Below are positions 12,280 to 63,851 of a stretch of DNA of 64,000 bases, piece after piece. Made by a program: the position numbers and the translations under genes. The notes beneath the pieces were generated by a model. The model saw only the letters and a list, made by a program, of their open reading frames with translations. It searched no databases and was not told the DNA's origin. This DNA comes from a virus. Each line of letters opens with the position of its first letter. Position 1 is the stretch's first letter. Where the stretch lies: the IMG/VR virus record IMGVR_UViG_3300044695_003432, positions 1-64,000 of that record. One strand, 5' to 3'.

Positions 12280-12627
12280 TCAACCTTGCGGCAGGTCTTT
12301 CGCGTGGACCATCGTTGCCATCAGTGCGGCGGCGGTAGCCCTTGCCTTGCGATCGGCGTACTCGTTGCGCTCGCCAGCGACCATGTACGCGAACGTCGGA
12401 TGAAAGTACGCCTCGGGCTTGTCGCCGTCCTTCGCAACGTGCCCGAGTTCGCCCCGCTTCACCGCGTCGCCGAGTGCCTTTCGCACGTCGCGGGGAACAG
12501 AGTTTGTGATAAGCCGCACCCGTTCGGCTAGAACCATTTGCACGTTGGCCTGCGCCAGCGTGATTCGACGGGCGTGCAAATCGTCCTTGATCTTGTCGAG
12601 CGTACTGCCTTGAAGTTCCATCGTCAT
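12280..12627 (-). CDS. Hypothetical protein
   Basis: 115 residues, helical and charged (LDKIKDDLHARRITLAQANVQ, RDVRKALGDAVKRGELGHV), ending FHPTFAYMVAGERNEYADRK. The GELGHV..G...AYFHP segment is winged-helix-like. A small early regulator is possible. No firm family. Confidence 0.6.
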   Translation of the reverse strand: MTMELQGSTLDKIKDDLHARRITLAQANVQMVLAERVRLITNSVPRDVRKALGDAVKRGELGHVAKDGDKPEAYFHPTFAYMVAGERNEYADRKARATAAALMATMVHAKDLPQG

Positions 12628-12727
12628 ACTCCTTGTTATCCCCGCCCTGGTCGCCGGGCGCGCGCCGTGTCACTCACGGGAAACCACGCCGAACCCGGTA
12701 TGGTGCGGCGCGGGGTGGGTTAGTCGG

Positions 12728-12985: not shown

Positions 12986-13093
12986 CGTTCACTCCTGCCC
13001 TTCCGGGCTTCCCCAACCGTGCGCCGGTTGATGCGGGCTGTCACTCAGCCGAAACCCCTACCTGCCGTGTCCGGCGCGGTGGGGTGAGGATTC

Positions 13094-14025: not shown

Positions 14026-14429
14026 TTGACCCCCCCTTCGGCGCGGGCGATCGCGGCGCGGGCGATGGTTCGGATTTCACCGATCGCAAGGCTTACGTCC
14101 GTGGCGTTTCCCTGACAGCCCGCAAGCCGATCACAGCTCCGCAGCACTTCCAACAACTCCGGCGCGGAAGTCTTGCGGTCGATCAGGTCTGCGATTCCGT
14201 ACACGGTCTTTTCGCCGTACTCGGTCTTGATCCGATCGCGCCCGTTCATGATGACGCGAGCCGCGGCAAGCGCGCCGGGCGTGTAGTCGTCGTCCATCGT
14301 GCGCGGCCGCGCCGTGTCACTCAGGGCATCGGCAAGCCTGGCATGGCCCGGATCGTCGGGCGAACGCTCGGGAAAACACTTCGCCAACTCACGCCGAAGC
14401 GCGGATGCGGCCTTATCATTCAGTGACAT
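14022..14429 (-). CDS. Hypothetical protein
   Basis: 135 residues, helical, with SLNDKAASALRRELAKCFP and a C-terminal helix ARAAIARAEGG. One copy of the AGTGACACGGCG motif is inside the gene. No family recognised. Confidence 0.65.
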   Translation of the reverse strand: MSLNDKAASALRRELAKCFPERSPDDPGHARLADALSDTARPRTMDDDYTPGALAAARVIMNGRDRIKTEYGEKTVYGIADLIDRKTSAPELLEVLRSCDRLAGCQGNATDVSLAIGEIRTIARAAIARAEGGVK

Positions 14430-14554
14430 AGGGATACTCCATGTTCCTTGTCCACGCCCCCGGTGCTTGCGGCACGCGGGGGCAACTTATGCGCCGTGTC
14501 ACTTTGACGCGGTGCGGAATCAGGACGCGCACCGTTAGGCGCGCGCCGTGTCAC

Positions 14555-14815: not shown

Positions 14816-14898
14816 CGTTTACACTCCATTCGTTGCGGCGAACGTGCTCCGGCGGAGCACAAGCGACGCGCGGGCCTTTCGACCGGCGCGGCGGAGGG

Positions 14899-15228: not shown

Positions 15229-15308
15229 GTTCGATTCTCCATTCCCTCTTGCGGAGGGGTCGCGGTATTGCGAAGCGTTCCGCGCCGGGTTAGCGGGGCG
15301 GAACGGGT

Positions 15309-43572: not shown

Positions 43573-44091
43573 CTAATTTGCGGGGCGTGATTTAGTGCTG
43601 GGTTGAATTTCGTCGGCGATGGTGATGCCCGCTTCGGCAAGAGCAGCGCGCCACGCATGATCGCGGGCATGGATCATCCGCATCTCGGCGTCGGTGAACA
43701 GGCCGGGCGTTTTCGCAACGGTCGGTGCCTTCACCACCATCGCGGCGGGCTTGGGTGCGGGCTCAACTGCGGCGAGGCGGGATTCGAGGGCGGTGATGCG
43801 CTTCCATGCCTCGTGTAGCCGCTCGTGGGCGTGCGCGGCGTTGGCCCGTGCCTGCGCATCCACCACGGGAACAACGTCACGAAAACAAGATTTCTCGTCG
43901 TTCTTGTTTTCTTGCGGGGCGGGCTTAGGCAACTCCGCTTTACCACCGTTCGCGGTAGGAAAATCTGGGGGCGTTTCCTTTACTAGCCGCGCGTTCCCAG
44001 ACGCCTCTGCTGTCAAAACCGGCGATGTTGTCTTTTGCTGACACTCGGGCTTCTCCCCTTCGCCGGGGGTGATCGTGTTCTCGCTACTCAT
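43573..44091 (-). CDS. Hypothetical coiled-coil protein, short allele
   Basis: 172 residues from ATG 44091 (ATGA overlap with the sigma-like gene). The N-terminus (SSENTITPGEGEKPECQQ) replaces the 70-residue domain found in the copy at 1-452. The middle is the shared repeat. The C-terminus has HERLHEAWKRITALESRLAAV (coiled coil) and a helix MRMIHARDHAWRAALAEAG. It marks the exact joint between phage A-type and phage B-type sequence. Function unknown. Confidence 0.75.
   Translation of the reverse strand: MSSENTITPGEGEKPECQQKTTSPVLTAEASGNARLVKETPPDFPTANGGKAELPKPAPQENKNDEKSCFRDVVPVVDAQARANAAHAHERLHEAWKRITALESRLAAVEPAPKPAAMVVKAPTVAKTPGLFTDAEMRMIHARDHAWRAALAEAGITIADEIQPSTKSRPAN
43820..44072. repeat. 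Long direct repeat, copy 2 (partner 1-247)
   Basis: Bases 43820-43946 equal 1-127 exactly. The remainder differs by five substitutions and a 6-base insertion. It lies inside the hypothetical gene 43573-44091. Spacing between copies is 43,819 bp. Confidence 0.95.
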
Positions 44092-44363
44092 GCTGCCACC
44101 GTCCTTTCCTTCCGAATCTTCTTCAGAATCTTCTTCACATCGCTCGCCGCGGTCTCGGGAACTTCCATCCCCATCCGCTCGGCGATCTCCCGGAGTACGG
44201 GATCGTTGACGAAAGCCCGATGGAGTTTACCCAGGGCTCTCTGCTCGATGGCGAAGGCATTGGCCTTTGTGCAGGGGGTTCCGCGGGCGGTGAGTATCTC
44301 GGCACACTCGCCGAGGGTGCGGATGCCGGAGTTACGCTCTTCTTTGGTGTAGCCGGTGCTCAT
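44088..44363 (-). CDS. Sigma region 4-like protein (phage B side)
   Basis: 91 residues. IRTLGECAEILTARGTPCTK then FAIEQRALGKLHRAF resembles a sigma region 4 helix-turn-helix and the phage A protein at 3683-3871. Basic C-terminus (VKKILKKIRKERTVAA). It could adjust host RNA polymerase promoter choice early in infection. Overlaps both neighbours by four bases. Confidence 0.5.
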   Translation of the reverse strand: MSTGYTKEERNSGIRTLGECAEILTARGTPCTKANAFAIEQRALGKLHRAFVNDPVLREIAERMGMEVPETAASDVKKILKKIRKERTVAA

Positions 44364-44743
44364 GCCGCCACCCCCATTCCCATATCCTCGGCAAACTCCT
44401 CGGCTTCATCCTGCGGCCATTCCTGATTCGTGTATTCACGGGGAGCGAACGCGGCGAAGATCACATCCTCTTCGTTGATCCCCTCAAGGACCGCGGGCAC
44501 GTCGATCGAGACCTCTTCGATCCCGGAATCTTCCCACTCGATTGCGTTCCGGAGGCGGAGGCAGGAGAAGAGGGACATGAGCCGGATGGGCTCCTCGTCG
44601 AGGGCATCGAGAGCCAGAGTCAGCCGGGAACCTACGGGGGCCGGTGTGAACAGAGCCCGGAGGTACTCACGGGATTCGCGGGCGATGCTCCGCGTCCATG
44701 CGTCGAGGACCAAGGTACGGTAAGACTTCTTCCGATCTGCCAT
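44360..44743 (-). CDS. Hypothetical acidic protein
   Basis: 127 residues (MADRKKSYRTLVLDAWTRSIA...). Basic N-terminus, then a strongly acidic C-terminal half (EGINEEDVIFAAF, QDEAEEFAEDMGMG). Last in the hairpin-led gene series. Acidic early proteins often inhibit host DNA-binding enzymes, but nothing specific is shown here. Confidence 0.65.
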   Translation of the reverse strand: MADRKKSYRTLVLDAWTRSIARESREYLRALFTPAPVGSRLTLALDALDEEPIRLMSLFSCLRLRNAIEWEDSGIEEVSIDVPAVLEGINEEDVIFAAFAPREYTNQEWPQDEAEEFAEDMGMGVAA

Positions 44744-44750
44744 GATGCAA

Positions 44751-44822
44751 AGACTCCAAAGGCCCCAGCGTCATTGCTAGGGGAAACGATCCGAGACCGG
44801 GTAGGGTGTCGGATCGGATGGA
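44751..44822 (-). repeat. Structured leader element 1
   Basis: Outer hairpin 44787-44816 (CGATCCGA/TCGGATCG) and inner hairpin CCCTAGC-AATGAC-GCTGGGG (44763-44782), followed by CCTTTGGAG upstream of the ATG at 44743. This is the most diverged copy; the palindromic ribosome site is partly lost. Confidence 0.75.
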
Positions 44823-45677
44823 TCAGCGAACGGGGAACCCCTCGCCGCGGTCGAAGTACCGGACGACGGTTCCGGGGTCGGTGTGGCTTCCACCGGCGTA
44901 CCGCATCGTTTTTCCGCCGGTCGGCCACCAGTCCGGGAAGCGGTGCGACTTGCTTTCAATGCCCGTGACGGTTCCGGAGCGGCTGTCAGACTTGTAGCGG
45001 ACAGTCTGCTCTACCGGGCGGTCTTCGCGGCGGAGGTAGACCCCGACGCGGACAGTGCCGATCCCGGAAACCTCAGAGAACCAGTGCGCGGAGCAAGTGC
45101 TATTTGAGTAGTGCGGGGAGTGAGCCCAGAAGGTGACAGGGGCGATCGGCGTGCGTTCCGGGTTTCCCTTCTCTGATCGGGACTCCGGACAAATGCTAGT
45201 GCATCCGTCCCGGCGAATCTCCGCGGGGATCGGAGGAAGTGCCGCAACGATCCGGAGAAGATCGGACCAGGAGAGCCCGCCTTCTTTGTGCATCGAGAAC
45301 GAATCGCCGTAGGTGAGCCAGGCGGCTTCGGTAGAGTGGTGCCCTAGCACCGTCACCAGCCGGGGCGGAAGGTCTTCGAGGGCGTGGCGGATGATGGCCT
45401 CAGTCTCGGCCTTCAGGATATCTTGTTCGGCCTTCTCGATTGCCTTTACCCAGATATCCGAAACGGGCACGGCGATTGGGTATTCTGACGTGAGATCGTT
45501 AGGGGCGAAATAGCCCTCGACGGTGGAGCCACTGAGGAACCACTCCCCCTTTTTAGGTGGGCGGCTCTCCCCCGTTGGCCGTACTTTGGTAGCCGTTCCC
45601 GCTCGGGTCCGATCCTCTTCCGCGATTGGGTAAAGGCGGCTTCCGGGAAACTCCCACTTCATGTCTCTAAGCTGCAT
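44823..45677 (-). CDS. Hypothetical protein
   Basis: 284 residues from ATG 45677, placed 7 bases after the GAAAGG ribosome site; a longer TTG start inside the leader palindrome is rejected. Mixed sequence with WEFPGSRLYPIAEEDRTRAG, a helix AIEKAEQDILKAETEAIIRH and a beta-rich C-terminus (GTVTGIESKSHRFPDWWPTG). No family recognised. Confidence 0.65.
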   Translation of the reverse strand: MQLRDMKWEFPGSRLYPIAEEDRTRAGTATKVRPTGESRPPKKGEWFLSGSTVEGYFAPNDLTSEYPIAVPVSDIWVKAIEKAEQDILKAETEAIIRHALEDLPPRLVTVLGHHSTEAAWLTYGDSFSMHKEGGLSWSDLLRIVAALPPIPAEIRRDGCTSICPESRSEKGNPERTPIAPVTFWAHSPHYSNSTCSAHWFSEVSGIGTVRVGVYLRREDRPVEQTVRYKSDSRSGTVTGIESKSHRFPDWWPTGGKTMRYAGGSHTDPGTVVRYFDRGEGFPVR

Positions 45678-45684
45678 GGCTTTA

Positions 45685-45748
45685 CCTTTCAAAGGCTCCG
45701 GCGGTATTGCCGGAGGAATCGACCCGGAACCGTTTCGGGTGCCGGATC
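45685..45748 (-). repeat. Structured leader element 2
   Basis: H1 GATCCGG/CCGGGTC (45721-45748), H2 CTCCGGC-AATACC-GCCGGAG (45696-45715), then the palindrome CCTTTGAAAGG (45685-45695) holding the ribosome site of the next gene. Confidence 0.85.
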
Positions 45749-45755
45749 GGATACT

Positions 45756-46085
45756 TCAGACAGTGCAGGCGGGTCCGTAGGGCTTGCTAGAAAGTCCCTC
45801 TCGGACCAGGATGAGACGCGAACCCGTGAAGGGGATGCGATCTCCGTCGCGGGGATAGACCCACCATTCGCCCCGCGACTGAGAGACGTAGAACCCCAGA
45901 GCGAACTGGGCCGCGGCTTGATTCATGCGGAGCTTGGTTGTCGCGGTTTTCCAGCCGCCCGTATTCAGATCGATAAGGGAGGAGTCAAACGAAACCACAT
46001 CGGTATTGTGATACCGAACGATCGTTCGCCCCCCCTCAGCGCGAATAGAGGTAGCTACGCCGGAGACTTTCAGAGTTTGGGCCAT
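45756..46085 (-). CDS. Hypothetical protein
   Basis: 109 residues from ATG 46085. Beta-rich (LKVSGVATSIRAEGGRTIVR, FYVSQSRGEWWVYPRDGDRI). Sits between leader elements 2 and 3. Unknown function. Confidence 0.65.
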   Translation of the reverse strand: MAQTLKVSGVATSIRAEGGRTIVRYHNTDVVSFDSSLIDLNTGGWKTATTKLRMNQAAAQFALGFYVSQSRGEWWVYPRDGDRIPFTGSRLILVREGLSSKPYGPACTV

Positions 46086-46092
46086 TGCTTTC

Positions 46093-46157
46093 CCTTTCAA
46101 AGGCTCCGGCGGTATTGCCGGAGGAATCGACCCGCAAGCGGTTAGGCTAGCTGGTCG
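46093..46157 (-). repeat. Structured leader element 3
   Basis: H1 CGACC/GGTCG with an inner CCGC-TT-GCGG (46128-46157), H2 CTCCGGC-AATACC-GCCGGAG (46104-46123), palindrome CCTTTGAAAGG (46093-46103). Confidence 0.85.
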
Positions 46158-46164
46158 GATGCTT

Positions 46165-46299
46165 CTACTCCGCGTCTCTGCTGCCAGGCTCCTCGGGGAA
46201 GAGGGCATCGGCGGCGGATTGGAGGAAGAGGGGTAGGAGGGTGCAGAGGAGGAGGGAGAGGAGGACCAGGGAGAAGAGGAGGAGGGAGGCATAGAACAT
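46165..46299 (-). CDS. 44-residue membrane peptide
   Basis: ATG 46299, behind GAAAGGG, encodes MFYASLLLFSLVLLSLLLCT and LLPLFLQSA, a single strongly hydrophobic helix, then an acidic tail (DALFPEEPGSRDAE). Preceded by its own hairpin (46317-46338). Could be an early membrane-acting toxin or superinfection protein; function unknown. Confidence 0.55.
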   Translation of the reverse strand: MFYASLLLFSLVLLSLLLCTLLPLFLQSAADALFPEEPGSRDAE

Positions 46300-46304
46300 C
46301 GGTT

Positions 46305-46338
46305 TCCCTTTCATCTACCGATGGCCTATTCCATCGGT
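46305..46338 (-). repeat. Structured leader element, variant (one hairpin)
   Basis: ACCGATGG-AATAGG-CCATCGGT (46317-46338) followed by AGATGAAAGGG. It has the same loop style and ribosome-site distance as H2 of the other elements, but a different stem sequence, and no full palindrome. Confidence 0.7.
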
Positions 46339-46386
46339 GAATCCGCCGATGAGACTTTCATCTAATCGGAAGGAAGGGGAGAGGAG

Positions 46387-46423
46387 AAAACCACCCAGGG
46401 CGGTTACCCGCGTCTGGGTGGCT
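46387..46423 (-). terminator. Intrinsic terminator
   Basis: Strong stem CCACCCAG/CTGGGTGG with an inner CGGG/CCG-type pairing, followed by TTTTC on the minus strand. Ends transcription after the gene 46434-46673. Confidence 0.75.
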
Positions 46424-46433
46424 GAAAGGGAAA

Positions 46434-46673
46434 CTAGTGGAGCTGTTCGGCGGAGTAGTGTACGCCGATCATCGAAGCGGATACGACGAGATCAAAGGCA
46501 AATGTACAGATGAGAGGGTCGGGACAGTCGAGACGGAACCGGATTTCTTCTATGGCCTTTGCCTTTGAAGGGGCCCTGATACCATCGAACACCAGGGATA
46601 CTTGCGGATCGCTCGGTCGGGGCTTGTCCTTTGGACCAGCGAAGTATGCGACGCGGACGGAATAGCTTTTCAT
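46434..46673 (-). CDS. Hypothetical protein
   Basis: 79 residues from ATG 46673. Beta-alpha pattern (KSYSVRVAYFAGPKDKPRPS, KAKAIEEIRFRLDCPDPLIC). Between leader element 4 and a terminator. Unknown. Confidence 0.65.
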   Translation of the reverse strand: MKSYSVRVAYFAGPKDKPRPSDPQVSLVFDGIRAPSKAKAIEEIRFRLDCPDPLICTFAFDLVVSASMIGVHYSAEQLH

Positions 46674-46680
46674 CGGGTGC

Positions 46681-46745
46681 CCTTTCAAAGGCTCCGGCAC
46701 AATCGCCGGAGGAATCGACCCGCAAGCGGTTACGCTAGCGGATCG
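46681..46745 (-). repeat. Structured leader element 4
   Basis: H1 CGATCCGC/GCGGGTCG (46716-46745), H2 CTCCGGC-GATTGT-GCCGGAG (46692-46711), palindrome CCTTTGAAAGG (46681-46691). Confidence 0.85.
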
Positions 46746-46756
46746 GGTTGATTGGT

Positions 46757-47332
46757 CTAGAACTCTTCACCCTCTTCGGTGTACCGTTCTTCGTCTTGGT
46801 CGAGATACTCCAGGATGCCTGCCTCGGAGATTCGGTACTCCAAGTCATCCTCACAGATTCGCATGATCCGATCGGCTGCCCAATCGAATCCTCGGGAAAG
46901 GGTTTCACCGGATCGGATGGCGTCTAGGACAGCTTCGATAACGTCATCATCGAAGCAGACGCCAGACAGGCCACAGATACCGGGAAACTTTCCATCCTTC
47001 AACTGGTCTGGAGTGTAACCCTTGGGACGGAGGCATTCCCAGAACCATTCTTCGACCTTCTCTCCGGTATCGGAGAGGGTATCAATCTCATCATCCCCCA
47101 AGAAGGATTGGCGGAGGCTACACCGATTCCCGCGATTGTACGGGCCGATGCTCCAATCGCTCAGGGTAACGCACAAGGCATCGGCGAGCTTCTTCAGAGA
47201 ATCAATACACTCGGAGAGGGTGAAGTTATCGTCATCCCCGCCAATGTCCTCGGCGATATCGGCGATAACCCGATCCTGAGACTTTTCTGACAGCTCAGAG
47301 AATGAATACAGCTCGGTCTCTTGCGTTCTCAT
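46757..47332 (-). CDS. Phage protein of the antitoxin-like YSFxELSE family
   Basis: 191 residues from ATG 47332. The start TELYSFSELSEKSQDRVIAD and the end LEYLDQDEERYTEEGEEF resemble a common phage family named after toxin-antitoxin antitoxins. Very acidic. Actual role unknown; no toxin partner is adjacent. Confidence 0.55.
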   Translation of the reverse strand: MRTQETELYSFSELSEKSQDRVIADIAEDIGGDDDNFTLSECIDSLKKLADALCVTLSDWSIGPYNRGNRCSLRQSFLGDDEIDTLSDTGEKVEEWFWECLRPKGYTPDQLKDGKFPGICGLSGVCFDDDVIEAVLDAIRSGETLSRGFDWAADRIMRICEDDLEYRISEAGILEYLDQDEERYTEEGEEF

Positions 47333-47339
47333 CTTTGAC

Positions 47340-47404
47340 CCTTTCAAAGGTTTCCTAGCGACATGCTAGGGAATCGATCCGGTAGCCTTTCAGCTACGGG
47401 ATCG
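47340..47404 (-). repeat. Structured leader element 5
   Basis: H1 CGATCCCGTAGC/GCTACCGGATCG (47375-47404, 11 of 12 pairs), H2 CCTAGC-ATGTC-GCTAGG (47354-47370), palindrome CCTTTGAAAGG (47340-47350). The H2 stem sequence is wholly different from element 4 yet fully paired. Confidence 0.88.
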
Positions 47405-47410
47405 GGTGAA

Positions 47411-47611
47411 TCATTCGTAATCGTGCCAGTCTCGGACTTCCCCACGCGTCTGAAGTCTCCAGTTCATATCGGGCTCGGCATCGCGGTATGCCTGCAAAGT
47501 TTTCAGTAGATACGGAAGTCTATGGGGCAGATCGGACTCGTGGACTGTCCAGCGAGAATCGACGGTGAACCAACCAGGGCCGGACGACACTAAACGGAAG
47601 TTATTCGGCAT
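47411..47611 (-). CDS. Small hypothetical protein
   Basis: 66 residues from ATG 47611 (MPNNFRLVSSGPGWFTVDSR...). Short beta sheet plus helix (PHRLPYLLKTLQAYRDAEPD). Unknown. Confidence 0.6.
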   Translation of the reverse strand: MPNNFRLVSSGPGWFTVDSRWTVHESDLPHRLPYLLKTLQAYRDAEPDMNWRLQTRGEVRDWHDYE

Positions 47612-47618
47612 TGTGTTC

Positions 47619-47681
47619 CCTTTCAAAGGTCCGGCGGTATTGCCGGAGAATCGATCCAGCATCCTTTCGGATGCCGGATCG
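47619..47681 (-). repeat. Structured leader element 6
   Basis: H1 is 13 bp (one G-T pair) closed by a GAAA tetraloop (47652-47681), H2 TCCGGC-AATACC-GCCGGA (47630-47647), palindrome CCTTTGAAAGG (47619-47629). Confidence 0.9.
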
Positions 47682-47687
47682 GATGGA

Positions 47688-47945
47688 TCATTCGTCGTCC
47701 TCTTCAAGCAGATACACAATCCCACAATGTTTGCATGTCGGCAGGGGATGCCCGATCGGAGGCACGATCCTAGGGGCGGGTTCATGTCGGCAGTTGTCGA
47801 TATCGTACAGTTGATCCTTCAGCTCTTGGGCATTGTTCTCGATCTCTTCGATCTCTTCCTGAGAGAATCGATATCTCAGGGATGCCCGATCCGAGAGGAT
47901 GGATTCGATCTCTTCGATGCGTTCGGCGAGCTGTTCGCGTGTCAT
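47688..47945 (-). CDS. First gene of the hairpin-led series, coiled-coil zinc protein
   Basis: 85 residues from ATG 47945. N-terminal acidic coiled coil (REQLAERIEEIESILSDRAS, QEEIEEIENNAQELKDQL), then a Cys/His group (NCRHEP ... TCKHCGIVYL) that could bind zinc. First gene after the candidate promoter at 48.07-48.10 kb. Confidence 0.65.
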   Translation of the reverse strand: MTREQLAERIEEIESILSDRASLRYRFSQEEIEEIENNAQELKDQLYDIDNCRHEPAPRIVPPIGHPLPTCKHCGIVYLLEEDDE

Positions 47946-47952
47946 GTGTTTC

Positions 47953-48003
47953 CCTTTCAAAGGAATGAGTGAAAACCCCGCACGCGGTTTCCCGCATGCA
48001 GGG
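47953..48003 (-). promoter_or_regulatory. Leader element 7 with terminator-like hairpin (possible attenuator)
   Basis: A 12-bp stem with two G-T pairs and a GAAA loop (47976-48003) is followed by TTTT, then by the palindrome CCTTTGAAAGG (47953-47963) and the ATG at 47945. A hairpin plus T run between promoter and first gene could pause or end early transcription. Confidence 0.65.
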
Positions 48004-48062
48004 CGTTTAGGTTTCGGTTTCACTTGTCAGAGAAGGGGATTCGGGCCGTTGCCCGTCTCCGA

Positions 48063-48098
48063 TGAGTGAAGTATCGGCTATACGAGAAGGAAAGACAA
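48063..48098 (-). promoter_or_regulatory. Candidate promoter of the small-gene cluster
   Basis: TTGTCT (48093-48098) and GATACT (48070-48075), 17 bases apart on the minus strand; 4 of 6 matches each. The leader then has a CGGGC-AACG-GCCCG hairpin (48042-48055) and element 7. Confidence 0.45.
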
Positions 48099-48204: not shown

Positions 48205-48339
48205 ATGGAATGGATGATTGAATGGGTGTTTGGGTATGGGCCGATTGTGTTTGCTGGGGTCGTGGTCGGCTGGTGGCTGAGAGACAGGGAAGAGAGACGA
48301 AAAGCCCCAGTCACGAAAACTGGGGCAAGGGTTGAATGA
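48205..48339 (+). CDS. Possible small membrane protein, opposite strand
   Basis: 44 residues from ATG 48205 (GGAG upstream): EWMIEWVFGYGPIVFAGVVV, GWWLRDREERRKAP. One membrane helix with a charged C-terminus. It is divergent from the small-gene cluster. Its 3' end overlaps the minus-strand terminator, so support is moderate. Confidence 0.4.
   Translation: MEWMIEWVFGYGPIVFAGVVVGWWLRDREERRKAPVTKTGARVE
48301..48327 (-). terminator. Terminator after the phage B late genes
   Basis: GCCCCAGT-TTTCGTG-ACTGGGGC stem followed by TTTT on the minus strand. It separates the terminase-end genes of phage B from the small-gene cluster. Confidence 0.75.
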
Positions 48340-48842: not shown

Positions 48843-49102
48843 CACTTCCTCCCTCTGCGTCTCGTCTGCGTCTTTCCTGCGTCCACCTCTGCGTCCACCT
48901 CTGCGTCCACCTCTGCGTCCACCTCTGCGTCCCCCTTCACAACCCCGTCCACCCCTCCCTCTCCATCTCCTCCTCCATCTCCGCCAACATCTCGTCCAGG
49001 TTCATCACCTCCACCCTTCACCTCCTCCCCCTTGGGGGGTTCAGCCTGAGCGACGTACATCTGCTTGATCGAGTCCCAATAGTTGATTAGCGAGTGATCC
49101 AT
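48842..49102 (-). CDS. Acidic protein with DAEV tandem repeats
   Basis: 86 residues from ATG 49102, overlapping the end of terminase. After MDHSLINYWDSIKQMYVAQA comes a Gly/Asp-rich stretch, then four to five DAEV units encoded by a 12-bp tandem repeat (about 48888-48935), and a basic end (KTQTRRRGRK). The repeat number could vary by slippage. Function unknown. Confidence 0.6.
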   Translation of the reverse strand: MDHSLINYWDSIKQMYVAQAEPPKGEEVKGGGDEPGRDVGGDGGGDGEGGVDGVVKGDAEVDAEVDAEVDAEVDAGKTQTRRRGRK

Positions 49103-51728: not shown

Positions 51729-51937
51729 GCGGTCTTCTGATTCTCTTGGAAGGGGAGGTTCTCGGCGAGCTTCAGGATGGGGGAGTTCTTCTGACCGGCT
51801 TGGATGCCGTGGTCATGCAGGAGCTTCCGCATCCGCTCTTTGTCCTGCGGGGATGCCTCACCGCTCTCCAGGAGCTTGAGGTCTGACTCGATCAGAGTGG
51901 TCATCATCTGAGCGAGCATGTCTTTATCACTGGGCAT
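51725..51937 (-). CDS. Terminase small subunit (phage B)
   Basis: 70 residues from ATG 51937, matching the gp18-type pattern (TLIESDLKLLESGEASPQDK, ERMRKLLHDHGI). Overlaps holin and TIM-barrel genes. Confidence 0.7.
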   Translation of the reverse strand: MPSDKDMLAQMMTTLIESDLKLLESGEASPQDKERMRKLLHDHGIQAGQKNSPILKLAENLPFQENQKTA

Positions 51938-52205
51938 GGCCTGCACTCACAAGGGAGAGGATCTTGAGGATCGTCGCTGAGTTGAGGATGAAGGTGAGGA
52001 CGGCGAGACCCCCGAGGCCCATGTAGAGGTGCTTCTTCAGGTGGTCGATCTCGCCCCTCTGCTCTCGGGCTTGGGTCTGGATTGAATCAAGGAGTTTGCC
52101 ATTCATGGTTTCGCGTTCCTCGGCACGCTCGATGAACTGGTCGAGCTTGCCGGTCAGGAGTCCGATCTTTTCGCAAAGCTCGGCCACTACGGATTGGTCG
52201 GGCAT
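51927..52205 (-). CDS. Putative holin, XhlA-like (phage B)
   Basis: 92 residues from ATG 52205. Coiled-coil N-terminal two thirds (CEKIGLLTGKLDQFIERAEE, EQRGEIDHLKKHLY) and one C-terminal membrane helix (GGLAVLTFILNSATILKILS). Architecture of hemolysin XhlA-type holins. Confidence 0.7.
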   Translation of the reverse strand: MPDQSVVAELCEKIGLLTGKLDQFIERAEERETMNGKLLDSIQTQAREQRGEIDHLKKHLYMGLGGLAVLTFILNSATILKILSLVSAGHAQ

Positions 52206-52230
52206 GGGGGTTTCCAATGGGGTGAAGAGA

Positions 52231-52253
52231 CACCCCCGCGGTTAGGCGGGGGT
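52231..52253 (-). terminator. Strong hairpin after the gp16-position gene
   Basis: CACCCCCGC-CTAACC-GCGGGGGTG followed by a pyrimidine-rich but T-poor tail. May be a weak terminator or a processing stem. Confidence 0.5.
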
Positions 52254-52260
52254 GGCTTGA

Positions 52261-55200
52261 TTAGCGACCAGAGTTCTTGAGCAGCTTGTTCACCTCTTCG
52301 GAGGAGGTGAGCCCGCTCTCAAGCAGGGCGTCGATGTTGAGACCGCTGGAGGCAGCTTTCAGCTTGGCGGCATCGGGCATCACGGATTGGCCCGTTGTCG
52401 TTCTGAAGTGCTCCTCGGTCATGGCGAGGGCGGTGAGCTTGTACTTCTCGTAGATGGATCGGAGAGCCTGCACCCGGTAGTTGTACGAGTCGCCTCCCTT
52501 GTAGGGGAGAGCGGTGCTCTTGTACTGCGGGGTGTTGATGAGCTTCTCAAGAGCCTCATCCACGAGGGCCTTGGACCCATCCGGCATGGGGAGCTGGACT
52601 CTGCCAAGAGTCTCTCGCCAGTAGTCGAGATAGGTCTGACCGCTCTTGTCACGGTAACTGCGGAGGTTGATACCAGGGCCGTACATCTCCTCGGGGGGAG
52701 TGAGCACGGTTCCGGTGGCAACGAGTTCCTTCATCACGGGGGTCTGAGAGATGGGTCCGCTTTGGAACGGAGAGACCACATCGGCAACACGGTTATGGCC
52801 GGTGATGAGGTTCCACGGAGCCGCTCCCCGCATCCCGGTCGTCACTCGACCGAAGATGTCTCGGGCGGGGTCGGAGAACTCAGACCAACCAGGGACACGG
52901 TTGCGGATGGCACCGAGCATCCCATCGGTCTCTCGCTTCTGACCATCGAACGCAACCGCCACGTCACGGACGATGCCGGGAACGATGGAGCCTGCGTAGG
53001 AGTTCAGAGCCTTCTCCACTTGGCCGGGGGAACCCTCCAGAAGGGAGAAGAGATTGGAGAGGCCGGTGAGGAAGGTGTCGTTACTGAGCTGGCTTTGGAA
53101 GACCAGCAGCATCTTCTCGGCGATGGTCCCCCGTTCGTTCTCGTCCGTCGCCACATCGAGGGTCTCCATCATGTCTGCGATAGCCATGAGGGGACGGCTG
53201 ATGGGGGAGTAACGGTTGAGCGGGTAGACCCTTCCGTTGATGATGAGGGAGTTGGGAACCCAGCCGGTGTCCATGAGAGCCTTGCGGGTCTGAGGCTCCG
53301 TGGGACCGGAGCCAGTCAGGTTGCCCGAGGCGTACAGAGACACCGCGGGCAGAGCAAGCATCGTGGACATCACGAGCTCCCCCTTCGCATGTGCCCGCGT
53401 GAGCGGATCAGGCGAAGAGAGGCGTGCTCGGAACTGCTTACCGGCCTCAGAGGGCCGGAGGTAGTTGAAGCCCAGAGTCATGTTGGCACCGTCCGTCAAG
53501 AGGTTCGACGGGGTGCGGAGGAAGGGGACGAAGAGACGGAGGACAGGAGCCTTCTCTCGGGTCTTCTCAAGCGATCGAGCGAGGCTCCCGTTGAGAAGGT
53601 CGGAGGTCCACGTTGCCGCAGCGGCTTCGTCTACGCCGCCTTGGAACAGGAAGGTCTTTCCATCGGCGGTCTTCGAGGCCGTCCCGTCGATGCCGTAGGC
53701 AACCTTGAGGTAATACTTCTGGAACTCCTCTGCCTTGTCCCCGGAGATTCCGAGGAGGCGGGCATCGGCGTTGGCCTGCGTCTTCACCCAAGCCTGGTAC
53801 GAGACGTTCTTGAACCACTCGTCAGAGGTGTTGAGTACAATACTCGGGCCTCGGGCCAACTTGCCAAGGATGCCGGGGAGAACCGGCTCATGCTCTCCAA
53901 GGGAGTGCTGAGAGAGAATCGGCCTCTCTTTCTTCCAAGCCCGCGTGGCGTTCTGAACCGCTCGACTGTTGAGCTTGAGGGACTCGAAGGAAGTTTCAAG
54001 AAGGTTTCGGAAGTGGTTGGAGACGAGTTTTAACTGCTGAGGATCACCCTCGTTGATCGCCCCAAGGGCTTCCTTGAGGGGGCGAAGGACGAGCATGTTG
54101 AGCCCGGTACTGAGCGGGTTGTGGTTGATGGTCTTGACACTGGAGAGCAGACCGTTCTGCCACACTTCAAGAGCTGCCTTGCCCACCTTGCCCGCGATGC
54201 CCCAGAAGTTCTCAACTGCTTGGGCGGCTTCGGACGGGCCGAGGCCTGCACGGAAGACCGCTTCGGCGTACTTCGCCTGGGCTTTGAGGACTTCAGGGCT
54301 GGCCTTGACCACATCGAGATGGGCCTTGGCCTCGGCGAGGATCTCCTCGAGCTGGCGGAGCTGGGTTGCTTGGGCGGTGGTGGGGGTTCCTTTGACTTCA
54401 GCGAGGAGTGCGGCCTTGGCGGATTCAGCGGACTCGACCATATCCATTGCCCGTTGGAGAACGGGGTGGAAGGTAGTGCCCGCTTCTTGAGCAGCCTTGG
54501 CGACCTTCTCCGCAGCCGGGTCGGCTTGACCTGCGGCTTTGGTGGAGGTGATGCGATCCCGCTCGACGCCGAGGCGACGGAAGACCTCATCGAGGGCTTC
54601 TGACTCCTTGGTGAGGTGTTCGACATCGTTGATCTGGAGGGCTCGACCGACAACTCGGTTCAGAGCCTTCCGCTCAACGGTGGCGTCGATCATCCCGTTC
54701 AGGAACTCCGCACTCATCTTCATGTCGCCCTTACCTGCCATGCGGGTTGCAAGGAGGCCGTTGGCGACGACTTTGGCGTTGGCACGAGCGACCAGGGCAG
54801 GGAGCTTCTCGCCGACGCTTGCCCAGTTGTCCTGAAGGAACTTGAGCTGGGTGGGGTCGTCGATGAGTTCCACCACGTCCTTCCACGTCTGGTCGTTGGA
54901 CTGGTTGATGCCAGCGACGACGGAGGCGGCTTGGTTGGTGGTGGAGTCGATCGCCTTGTGGAGCTCGTCGATCGAGGGGGTGCCTCCGAGGGTTCGGAGG
55001 TTGGTGTGTTCAAGGGTGGCGAGGGCGATTGCGTCCGAGGGGATGGCACCTTCGGACATGAGGGCTTGGACGGTGGAGACGGCGGGGGGAGGAGTGGGGG
55101 CTGAGGCGGCGGGGGGAGGAGTGGGGGCTGGGGCGGCGGACTGACCAAGTTCCGCTGGCCCACGACGAGCTTGGCCACTGACCAAGCTCGACTGAGCGTT

Positions 55201-57168
55201 ACGGATAACAGCATCCTCGTTCAATACGATGGTTCCAATAGTGCCATCTAGGTTGAAAGAGAGCACGTCGTATCCGGCTGTTTTCGCCTTTACGACCGCA
55301 TCGTTTACCGCGTCCACGAGGGTTTCGCCCTCATTCAGCGACGAGCCGATGTAATCATTCGGGGGCCGCTCCCGACCAAGAAGCGTCCAGAACCCATCGT
55401 CGCCTTCTCGCAGAATCTTGGCTTCAGGCTTAGCGACAATCGTTTCAATGCTCGGGCCGTAACTTCTGGCGGATTCCGCCGAGCGGGCCATGAACGTCAT
55501 GCCTTTTGCGGCATTGAACGGCTCCGCGATCCGCTCGGTTCGGGACGGGTTGGTTCCTCGATAGAACACCCGAGATGGGTCTGCGGCGGCGGGGGGCCGC
55601 TCGATCATTACAATGTGCTTGACAGGCCCGTTGGGCGTGTCGTGCATGTAAGCAACGGAGTCGAATCCCATCGACTCCATCCAGTCGGCCATTGCGGAAC
55701 CGCTGAGCTTCTCCGGGGGGATTGCCTCCGCCTCGCCTTTGGGGCGTTTAGACTTCCAGACATCGTGAGTGCCCGCTTCGTTTCGGAGAACCCGCCACAC
55801 AGGCATCGGCGGATCTACGTCCCCGCCGGATACAGACATCGGCCCCCTGAGAGGCCCGTCGAGAACAGCCGAAACTTCCTTGGGCAGATCATTCCGCCTC
55901 CAGTTAGGAGGTAGCGGGGGAAATCCCATAGCGTTGTTGATGGCCTCGGTGAACTCCACAAACGTCTGCTTCGGCCCGGATTTGGTCAGATCGAGCGTCT
56001 TCTTTGGGGCAATCTCAAACTCCGCCACGGTTCCGTCTGCACGGGGCTTGTGGCCGTGGAGGATCTCGAAAGACTCCGCACCCTTACCGGGGTTCCGCTT
56101 GTCGTACCTCGCCACGGTTCGGGAGTCGGTGGATGCGTACCTTGCCGCATCCTCGGGGTCCGTGGTGTAGAACTTGAACGGGGCCGTAGGCGGGGTGTCC
56201 TGGCCGGGGCGGATTATGTTGTCGATGGACTGAACGCCGGAGAGATGCTTGCCGCCTTCGAGCGGGGCCATGTCTCCGCGGTAGACTTTGACAGCGGCGA
56301 TTGGGGCCGCATTCGCCGCATCCCCCACAACGCCATTAGACGGCACTACAGCCGTTCCAGCATTGGATGCACTCTCGGATGCACCTGAAGGTACGGACGC
56401 ATCCTGGGGCATCGTAGAGGCTTTGGGAGCCTGTAGGGCCTGGGCCTCTGCCGCCAGCTTGTCTTTCTGGGCTTGGATCTTCGCCAGCAGGGCCGCAGAC
56501 TCCTCGGCGGAGGCGGCTTTCTGGAGGCCCTTGGTCAGTTTGACAAGGGTTTCGATGGTGCCGAGGGCACCGTCCATAACCACGCCTTCGAGGGAGGCTT
56601 TGAGCTTCCGCTTGAGGATGGAATCATCCGCGTTCGTGGACAGGGCACGGGTGAAGTAGTTGTTCGCCGGGCCACCGAGGCGGACCAGGAGGTTTGAGAG
56701 GTTCTCGTTCTCTTGGTTGGCGAGGGCAAAGGAGGTGGCGGCACCCTGACCGGCCATCGTGGAGAGCTGCCGGAGGGCACCAGCACCACGGGAGGGAGTG
56801 AACCCAGCACCCAGCAGGCCGTAGCCAGCGGTGAACTCCAGAATCCCCTCGGCCACGGGACCGGCGGGGGTGGAGTATTGCAGGGCCGAGGGCATGGAAG
56901 CCTCTCGGTCCTCGGCTGAGACGGTGGAGAGGGTGCCGGGGCCGAAGGCAGCGTTCGCTACCGCGGCGACGTTGTTGGTGATGAGGTCGTCCTTGAGTGC
57001 TCCAACAGCACGGGGGACAGCCTTGGCGACATCTGCCGCCATCTTGAGGTTGTTGACGTAACCCTCTGCGGCTCCCTGAACGAAGCCTTTGCCCATTTCG
57101 GCGGCGTAGTCCAGGATGCCGGGGTCAGAGGGGACGGGCTTTGAGGAGGGGGTTTCGGGGTTGCTCAT
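52261..57168 (-). CDS. Large internal virion protein with two ADP-ribosyltransferase-like domains (phage B)
   Basis: 1635 residues at the T7 gp16 position. The N-terminus is helical with Gly/Ala hydrophobic parts. Residues about 294-525 look like an ART-PolyVal domain: VYRGDM (Arg297), FKFYTTDPEDAARYAS (331-346), GFDSVAYMHD and HIVMIERP. Residues 534-655 repeat the plan: FYRGTN (Arg537), TFMARSAESARSYG, GYDVLSFNLDG and TIVLNEDAV. A Pro/Ala linker follows (about 680-700), then long helices and a polyvalent-protein-type C-terminal region (LFVPFLRTPSNLLTDGAN). As an ejected protein it could modify host targets at infection. Confidence 0.75.
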   Translation of the reverse strand: MSNPETPSSKPVPSDPGILDYAAEMGKGFVQGAAEGYVNNLKMAADVAKAVPRAVGALKDDLITNNVAAVANAAFGPGTLSTVSAEDREASMPSALQYSTPAGPVAEGILEFTAGYGLLGAGFTPSRGAGALRQLSTMAGQGAATSFALANQENENLSNLLVRLGGPANNYFTRALSTNADDSILKRKLKASLEGVVMDGALGTIETLVKLTKGLQKAASAEESAALLAKIQAQKDKLAAEAQALQAPKASTMPQDASVPSGASESASNAGTAVVPSNGVVGDAANAAPIAAVKVYRGDMAPLEGGKHLSGVQSIDNIIRPGQDTPPTAPFKFYTTDPEDAARYASTDSRTVARYDKRNPGKGAESFEILHGHKPRADGTVAEFEIAPKKTLDLTKSGPKQTFVEFTEAINNAMGFPPLPPNWRRNDLPKEVSAVLDGPLRGPMSVSGGDVDPPMPVWRVLRNEAGTHDVWKSKRPKGEAEAIPPEKLSGSAMADWMESMGFDSVAYMHDTPNGPVKHIVMIERPPAAADPSRVFYRGTNPSRTERIAEPFNAAKGMTFMARSAESARSYGPSIETIVAKPEAKILREGDDGFWTLLGRERPPNDYIGSSLNEGETLVDAVNDAVVKAKTAGYDVLSFNLDGTIGTIVLNEDAVIRNAQSSLVSGQARRGPAELGQSAAPAPTPPPAASAPTPPPAVSTVQALMSEGAIPSDAIALATLEHTNLRTLGGTPSIDELHKAIDSTTNQAASVVAGINQSNDQTWKDVVELIDDPTQLKFLQDNWASVGEKLPALVARANAKVVANGLLATRMAGKGDMKMSAEFLNGMIDATVERKALNRVVGRALQINDVEHLTKESEALDEVFRRLGVERDRITSTKAAGQADPAAEKVAKAAQEAGTTFHPVLQRAMDMVESAESAKAALLAEVKGTPTTAQATQLRQLEEILAEAKAHLDVVKASPEVLKAQAKYAEAVFRAGLGPSEAAQAVENFWGIAGKVGKAALEVWQNGLLSSVKTINHNPLSTGLNMLVLRPLKEALGAINEGDPQQLKLVSNHFRNLLETSFESLKLNSRAVQNATRAWKKERPILSQHSLGEHEPVLPGILGKLARGPSIVLNTSDEWFKNVSYQAWVKTQANADARLLGISGDKAEEFQKYYLKVAYGIDGTASKTADGKTFLFQGGVDEAAAATWTSDLLNGSLARSLEKTREKAPVLRLFVPFLRTPSNLLTDGANMTLGFNYLRPSEAGKQFRARLSSPDPLTRAHAKGELVMSTMLALPAVSLYASGNLTGSGPTEPQTRKALMDTGWVPNSLIINGRVYPLNRYSPISRPLMAIADMMETLDVATDENERGTIAEKMLLVFQSQLSNDTFLTGLSNLFSLLEGSPGQVEKALNSYAGSIVPGIVRDVAVAFDGQKRETDGMLGAIRNRVPGWSEFSDPARDIFGRVTTGMRGAAPWNLITGHNRVADVVSPFQSGPISQTPVMKELVATGTVLTPPEEMYGPGINLRSYRDKSGQTYLDYWRETLGRVQLPMPDGSKALVDEALEKLINTPQYKSTALPYKGGDSYNYRVQALRSIYEKYKLTALAMTEEHFRTTTGQSVMPDAAKLKAASSGLNIDALLESGLTSSEEVNKLLKNSGR

Positions 57169-63815: not shown

Positions 63816-63851
63816 GAAAAACACCCTCCAGACTTTTCAATCTGGAGGGTG
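63816..63851 (-). terminator. Terminator after the phage B capsid gene
   Basis: 11-bp stem CACCCTCCAGA/TCTGGAGGGTG (63822-63851) followed by TTTTT on the minus strand. A second hairpin, ACTGTTGA/TCAACAGT, lies at about 63863-63883. T7 also has its terminator just after the capsid gene. Confidence 0.9.

Follow-up and report, generated by a model that had tools for sequence, protein, structure and literature searches.

Covarying hairpin leaders precede eight genes of one operon in a record of two T7-like phages

Repeats associated with the start codons of phage genes have been described since 2011, and their function is unsettled. In the cluster K mycobacteriophages, the start-associated sequence (SAS) is an over-conserved Shine-Dalgarno (SD) motif that precedes a subset of genes whose upstream gaps are unusually long, and about half of the copies carry an upstream inverted repeat, giving the extended start-associated sequence (ESAS; PMC3203893). 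The ESAS inverted repeats are conserved in sequence, with changes that do not support RNA pairing; RNA structure was thus argued against and the authors preferred DNA-binding sites (PMC3203893). Cluster EF and EG Microbacterium phages carry further SAS/ESAS versions, and inverted repeats 5' of starts are 17 bp long in cluster O mycobacteriophages and 18 bp long in cluster EG Microbacterium phages (PMC7302621). According to a 2025 paper, the role of SAS/ESAS still needs experimental verification (PMC12699233). Here, we analyzed bases 1-64000 (the window) of the 85,132-base viral contig IMGVR_UViG_3300044695_003432, a record of two T7-like phages, X and Y, arranged head to tail. A minus-strand operon between 48.1 and 44.4 kb (the 48-kb operon) contains eight genes that each have their own structured leader. 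SAS/ESAS are the nearest known description of these leaders.

An earlier note on this DNA had reported six to eight spacers that share one plan, namely a first stem (H1), a second stem (H2), a palindrome with the SD and the ATG. All eight spacers lie where it had placed them, with genes and leaders on the minus strand, and the H2 stems it quoted are correct. The shared plan applies to most copies, but leader 1 has no H2 and leaders 5 and 8 have no complete palindrome. Rather than varying between 8 and 13 bp as the note had it, H1 is a fixed 30-nucleotide (nt) hairpin of two 13-position arms and a tetraloop, followed by NUUC (NTTC in DNA), and the loop is GAAA in five copies instead of two, UAAC in two and UACC in one. 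After NUUC there are usually one or two more short hairpins, whereby the H2 stems comprise 6-8 bp. Leader 1 (47953..48004, gene 47688-47945) consists of H1 at 48004-47975 (13 bp, GAAA), TTTC and the SD palindrome at 47963-47953, and sits in the 5' untranslated region with no cistron upstream. Leader 2 (47619..47681, gene 47411-47611) has H1 at 47681-47652, ATTC, H2 at 47647-47630 and the palindrome at 47629-47619; in leader 3 (47340..47404, gene 46757-47332) the same elements are found at 47404-47375, ATTC, 47370-47354 and 47350-47340, and in leader 4 (46681..46745, gene 46434-46673) at 46745-46716, ATTC, 46711-46692 and 46691-46681. Leader 5 (46300..46372, gene 46165-46299), which had been described as a partial copy at 46305-46338, contains a full H1 at 46372-46343 (CTTCCGATTAGAT-GAAA-GTCTCATCGGCGG-ATTC) and an H2 at 46338-46317 (ACCGATGG/CCATCGGT), and its SD GAAAGGG is without the CCTTT half of the palindrome. 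Leader 6 (46093..46157, gene 45756-46085) has H1 at 46157-46128, ATTC, H2 at 46123-46104 and the palindrome at 46103-46093, and leader 7 (45685..45749, gene 44823-45677) has H1 at 45749-45720, ATTC, H2 at 45715-45696 and the palindrome at 45695-45685. In leader 8 (44754..44816, gene 44360-44743), H1 at 44816-44787, TTTC and H2 at 44782-44763 are followed by CCTTTGGAG instead of the palindrome assigned to this copy before; the palindrome is lost and the SD is GGAG.

The spacing of these elements is nearly constant. H1 begins 3-11 nt after the preceding stop codon in most copies (6, 6, 11, 7, 6 and 6 nt in the 48-kb operon; 61 nt for leader 5), and the start codon follows H1 after 40-43 nt in seven of the eight leaders and after 29 nt in leader 1, counted with the ATGs at 45677 and 46299. 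The genes at 44363 and 44091, farther downstream in this run, lack a leader and have an ATGA overlap with their neighbours, so that leader and translational coupling look like alternatives. A promoter-like TTGTCT-N17-GATACT is located upstream of the operon at 48070..48098 on the minus strand; it has 8 of 12 consensus matches and is under the threshold of the promoter scan. Family searches with the gene products gave few matches, and the products thus do not tell the function.

The leader folds are more stable than dinucleotide shuffles, with z-scores from -3.4 to -6.9 and at most one of 200 shuffles equally stable. Across the eight H1 copies, 93 of 104 cells are paired. There are 123 copy-to-copy comparisons in which both sides have changed and pairing is kept, compared to 26.8 in column shuffles (none of 20,000 as high), while whole-arm permutations pair equally well in 2 of 40,320 cases, which excludes chance; the first six copies alone yield 28 compensated comparisons versus 7.4 in shuffles. 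Copies within one genome are related by duplication, and these counts are therefore not probabilities of independent events, a point that is covered in part by a cross-phage test. For this test, 12 H1 hairpins (six from the 48-kb operon, two from a second operon of Y and four from the related phages L041, L042 and L043) were aligned without gaps over 34 nt. Both-sided changes were found at 9 of 12 pairs and 89.6% of the cells pair, whereby the hairpins of the relatives and of the second Y operon had been found by a structure-including model or a hairpin scan and are biased toward pairing. None of 500 shuffles reached any of five measures, pairing dropped to 26-41% when the partner was slid, and RNAalifold independently recovered the same H1 helix from this alignment. 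The earlier note's proposal that covariation reflects a selected RNA structure is borne out by both tests, and the compensatory changes within the operon and across phages strongly support H1 as an RNA structure under selection. Within the otherwise covarying helix, position 9 is unpaired in 10 of the 12 hairpins, always as a pyrimidine-pyrimidine mismatch; it is paired in leaders 2 and 3 and in the hairpins at 14550 and 52257.

Relatives were identified by two-sequence-alignment scans and comprise L010-L017, with 59-60% identity in the RNA polymerase, and L040-L045, with 52-68% identity in the terminase large subunit (TerL). One covariance model (R1) was built from six copies and a second one (R2) from H1 plus NTTC. 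R1, a covariance model of the kind that the earlier note had suggested, matches H1-like hairpins away from the RNA polymerase region in two records of these relatives, and H1 hairpins are present in L041, L042, L043 and the second operon of Y. The regions around and upstream of the RNA polymerase gene in the relatives, which were read and scanned with R1, are tightly packed and contain no leaders. The leader operon of the relatives (52-66% identical in TerL) lies downstream of TerL instead, at a distance of about 1 kb in L041 and L042 and of nearly 3 kb in L043. In L041 and L042 it opens with TTGACA-N17-GATACT, the 48-kb operon and both of these relatives share TAGCCGATACT there, and the small genes are each located behind one to three hairpins and an SD. 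Y has a similar operon between TerL and the integrase gene, with a promoter-like TTGCAA-N17-GATAAT at about 15.58 kb and H1-type hairpins at 15305, 14893, 14550 and 12713, all on the minus strand. The first of them (15272..15305) reads CGTTCCGCCCCGC-TAAC-CCGGCGCGGAACG with CTTC and is followed by CGC-AATACC-GCG and a further hairpin before the SD ATGGAG; the second (14860..14893) has the H1 geometry, CGCCGCGCCGGTC-GAAA-GGCCCGCGCGTCG, and two more hairpins before the SD ATGGAG. A multi-hairpin leader at 14432..14552, in front of the gene starting at 14429, is orthologous to leaders in L041, L042 and L043. In the leader of the MSLNDKA gene, which was located via the gene in Y and these three relatives, the SD-proximal stem is kept, for example by a change from GCCCCCG/CGGGGGC to GCCTCCG/CGGAGGC. 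Two H1-like hairpins were recovered by R2 outside its training set, one with TTTC at 12680..12713, 5' of gene 12280-12627 (26.1 bits), and one with CTTC on the minus strand of phage X at 52224..52257, between genes 52261-57168 and 51927-52217 (27.3 bits).

Beyond these relatives the searches yielded little. R2 had no match in the temperate T7-like phage LUZ100. In more distant planctomycete prophages (TerL identity 31-37%) there is no leader in the stretches read and no R2 match, and across 294 genomes of the planctomycete phylum R2 gave six matches in five genomes (E up to 0.01, about three expected by chance), which are not leader-like. No Rfam family reached its curated gathering score, and there was no match in a BLAST search of the operon against phage records, no relative in single-protein searches with the RNA polymerase and gene 46757, and no match in an exact H2 scan. 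A DNA-pattern scan of viral contigs with the 48-kb version gave one match, inside an open reading frame (ORF) of an A+T-rich 354-kb contig, which was dismissed as chance. No tRNA-like structure was detected.

In the stems of the 48-kb operon, read on the coding strand, there are eight G-U wobbles and no A-C mismatches (p 0.004); together with the other hairpins, the search for which permitted wobbles, the count is 13 G-U versus one A-C. The asymmetry in the 48-kb operon is what RNA of the coding strand would show. Hairpins of 13/4/13 geometry carry NTTC in 16 of 40 cases on the coding strand compared to 1 of 54 on the opposite strand (Fisher p 1.7e-6), and among hairpins outside the model-building copies, which were classed by hand, NTTC follows in 9 of 15 intergenic but 0 of 17 coding ones (p 1.8e-4). 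A rival idea is that the repeats are DNA-level cassette boundaries, that is, recombination sites or homology linkers that would let small genes move between operons and that might fold in single-stranded form, as integron attC sites do. It would fit that conservation concerns structure more than sequence, which also holds for attC sites, that a homologue of gene 44823-45677 with 69% identity is part of the L043 post-terminase operon, likewise behind a leader of that operon (the search gave L043 alone and no other relatives of this gene), and that a separate repeat, GTGACACGGCGC, occurs at gene junctions beside an integrase gene. However, the repeats are tied to stop codon, SD and ATG by their spacing, which speaks for mRNA; compensatory change is unsuited to a sequence-specific double-strand DNA site; and no attC-type core is seen: by reading, the RYYYAAC/GTTRRRY core boxes are missing and H1 ends with CG...CG followed by NTTC in nearly all copies. 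It is therefore hard to believe in such boundaries, and attC sites, as well as N4-type hairpin promoters, were dropped as candidates because their defining features are lacking. The 12-base repeat GTGACACGGCGC itself is found just after stop codons, within ORFs, where it is translated as SDTAR or VTRR, and where an integrase gene starts, in the window at 14554, 14502, 14320, 12673, 12142 and 12031 (minus strand), and in the relatives at 13087, 13469, 13847 and 15069 (L042), 13051, 13386, 13438 and 15019 (L041) and 14954, 15006 and 15188 (L043). The conserved N-terminal part of the MSLNDKA genes is joined to C-terminal parts that are unrelated, and the joint lies at this repeat or close to it, as though shuffling took place there.

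The palindrome CCTTTGAAAGG occurs exactly six times on the minus strand (47963, 47629, 47350, 46691, 46103 and 45695), each time 5' of an ATG, and these are its sole occurrences in the record of 85,132 bases. That it is invariant in six copies while H1 and H2 vary speaks for a translational switch, in which CCUUU hides the SD until temperature, a protein or a small RNA opens it. The earlier note had offered such a switch as a shared function, which does not agree with most of what we found. The SD hairpin is weak (-1.7 to -5.7 kcal/mol) and the predicted mean unpaired probability of the SD is 0.29-0.68, that is, about half; the palindrome is complete in six of eight leaders and incomplete in leaders 5 and 8; and in the relatives the SD (AAGGAG, ATGGAG, GGGAG) comes after the hairpin and not within it, the palindrome being absent there and in the second operon of Y. 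By our count, the flanks extend the palindrome stem in four of six copies, no better than chance. Nor is the SD stably paired and conserved in relatives in the way an RNA thermometer or another SD-sequestering element would have it. A switch of this kind is thus very unlikely, and the palindrome, which is weak alone, lacks a part in two of the eight leaders and does not occur in the relatives, is a local feature that is not supported as a common function.

Hairpins between genes are also expected of processing sites. T7 early mRNA is cut between genes by RNase III, and typical T7 RNase III sites comprise about two helical turns. Endonuclease sites at which RNase III or a different RNase cleaves the polycistronic mRNA, as in the T7 early region, would account for a hairpin with constant spacing in each gap of a T7-like phage operon. 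In most copies, however, the stems do not exceed 13 bp and are often broken at position 9, and the 6-8 bp of H2 are shorter still than typical T7 sites. Furthermore, R2 has no match in a T7 record over its first 10 kb, which include the early region. Finally, leader 1 precedes the first gene, and since no cistron lies upstream of it, a general 5' leader suits the data better than a pure processing site, which we regard as unlikely.

A somewhat different role would be that of a weak or degenerate intrinsic terminator or pause site, by which H1 and NUUC tune expression gene by gene. In LUZ100, mapped terminators are located between and within genes (PMC10134795), and other gaps in both phages of our record hold terminator-like hairpins with real U-tracts: at 63851, 34700 and 32423 on the minus strand, 13-bp hairpins with GAAA loops stand directly 5' of structural genes. 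H1, though, is followed by NUUC alone without a U-tract, and none of the leaders passes a terminator scan; UUUUC in leader 1 is the nearest that any of them comes to a terminator U-tract. As termination would also leave the second hairpin and the fixed start-codon spacing unexplained, we consider it quite improbable. Another terminator-like hairpin is present on the minus strand at 46383-46434, between genes 4 and 5 (CCACCCAG...CTGGGTGG, then TTTTCTCC). Read on the plus strand, its end is GAAAGGGAAAC, which is identical to the ribosome-binding site (RBS) 11-mer of leaders 1 and 5 in opposite orientation.

Taken together, we tentatively favour the explanation that the repeat is a modular cis-acting intercistronic RNA leader, which would be repeated through accessory operons of temperate T7-like phages and would stabilise and insulate each cistron. 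A single upstream promoter would give rise to a polycistronic mRNA, in which the hairpins of each gap might form a stable block that shields the upstream cistron at its 3' end and the downstream cistron at its 5' side. This block may at the same time stop translational coupling, and the SD, offered just 3' of the last hairpin, would make each small gene a separate and movable translation unit. In the 48-kb operon, the SD seems to have additionally been turned into a palindrome that pairs weakly with itself. The explanation is suggested by the covariation, which the sliding controls do not explain, by the fold z-scores and the constant stop and start spacing, and furthermore by the asymmetry of wobbles and mismatches, the coding-strand and gap specificity of the hairpin with NTTC and the alternation of leaders with ATGA overlaps. 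Several observations weigh against it: leaders 1 and 5 are not close behind a stop codon, SD and start codon are partly paired in the predictions, and the conserved mismatch at position 9, the loops and the NUUC tail go beyond the requirements of a generic stabiliser and suggest that a factor binds.

It might therefore be that an RNA-binding protein of the phage or the host binds to H1 and thereby switches or co-ordinates all genes of these operons as an RNA regulon, reading tetraloop, mismatch and NUUC while the helix sequence is free. Because mismatch, loops and tail are constant, a binding factor is the strongest rival, possible in our view but not probable. Besides the pyrimidine-pyrimidine position 9, left unpaired in an otherwise covarying helix, the restriction to GAAA, UAAC and UACC loops, the arm length of exactly 13 and the presence of NUUC in nearly all copies speak for it. 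On the other hand, position 9 is paired in four hairpins (leaders 2 and 3, 14550 and 52257), and common descent may partly account for the fixed length. The more specific form, a phage regulon in which one putative protein, of phage or host, reads the tetraloop hairpin with its mismatch and NUUC in front of every gene on movable accessory cassettes, is doubtful; if true, a cassette arriving with its leader would come at once under common post-transcriptional control. The way in which small genes of a phage are kept apart, stabilised or regulated together on a single mRNA becomes directly testable here, as the helix is clearly kept by compensatory change in two operons of one record and in related phages, with fixed stop and start spacing.

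The position of the 48-kb operon was viewed in the context of the whole record, in which the main genes are on the minus strand. Phage X extends from about 85 kb to 49.1 kb, with the integrase gene at 83.3 kb, a single-subunit RNA polymerase at 80.2-82.7 kb, DNA polymerase A and TerL at 49.1-50.8 kb. Phage Y takes up the record between about 44 kb and the left end, with its RNA polymerase at 40.3-42.7 kb, a head-tail adaptor, internal virion and tail proteins and TerL at 16.6-18.4 kb; its left part holds integrase (11.0 kb), an S24-type repressor (10.0 kb, opposite strand), ERF (7.9 kb) and DnaB (0.8 kb). TerL and RNA polymerase of X and Y share merely 27-28% identity, and since X and Y each carry their own integrase, beside their own RNA polymerase, both look temperate. 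Planctomycetota metagenome-assembled genomes hold relatives of the RNA polymerase with 29% identity, and a planctomycete host would be a guess. The 48-kb operon begins 0.99 kb downstream of the X TerL gene, which ends at 49087, and as this position matches the operons of Y and the relatives, it appears to be a post-terminase accessory operon situated where X and Y join. The assignment to the early genes of a "phage B", made by the earlier note, is doubtful for the same reason, the promoter-like site lying about 1 kb downstream of the terminase gene as in Y and its relatives. The intervening stretch of about 1 kb contains few clear genes at the X/Y junction (49087-48098), in Y (16599-15580) and also in L041 and L042. 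Divergent from the leader operon, a small ORF on the plus strand (48205-48339) encodes a probable membrane segment (MEWMIEWVFGYGPIVFAGVVVGWWL...). At the left end of the record, positions 1-247 are a 95.7% copy of 43820-44072, the start of gene 43573-44091; therefore, the contig may end within a tandem copy or within another, Y-like phage.

HK022 put sites are two-hairpin antiterminators with a plan resembling that of the leaders, but they are located near promoters rather than before each gene. Like T7 RNase III sites, the leaders are hairpins that separate small genes in a T7-like phage; they differ from these sites by shorter stems, a second hairpin, an RBS at fixed distance and a position downstream of the terminase gene. 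Intrinsic terminators are likewise G+C-rich gap hairpins, some with GAAA loops, whereas leader H1 is not followed by a U-tract and a second hairpin and the RBS come after it at fixed distance. The inverted repeats of cluster O and EG phages are also dyad elements that recur in short intergenic regions before starts; these are conserved in sequence, while the leaders conserve structure. Like SAS/ESAS, the leaders have an SD motif a few bases before the starts of a subset of non-structural genes, long upstream gaps, an inverted repeat upstream and one orientation. The motif itself is different: SAS is a 13-bp sequence that is not a full palindrome, recognized by the consensus GGGATAGGAGCCC with up to two deviations at the RBS (PMC3203893), in contrast to the 11-bp palindrome CCTTTGAAAGG of the leaders, which belong to a different phage lineage. 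Unlike in ESAS, the helix sequence of the leaders varies while pairing is kept and compensatory changes dominate, and the leaders would thereby add an undescribed structured RNA of uncultivated temperate T7-like phages to the start-associated repeats of phages.

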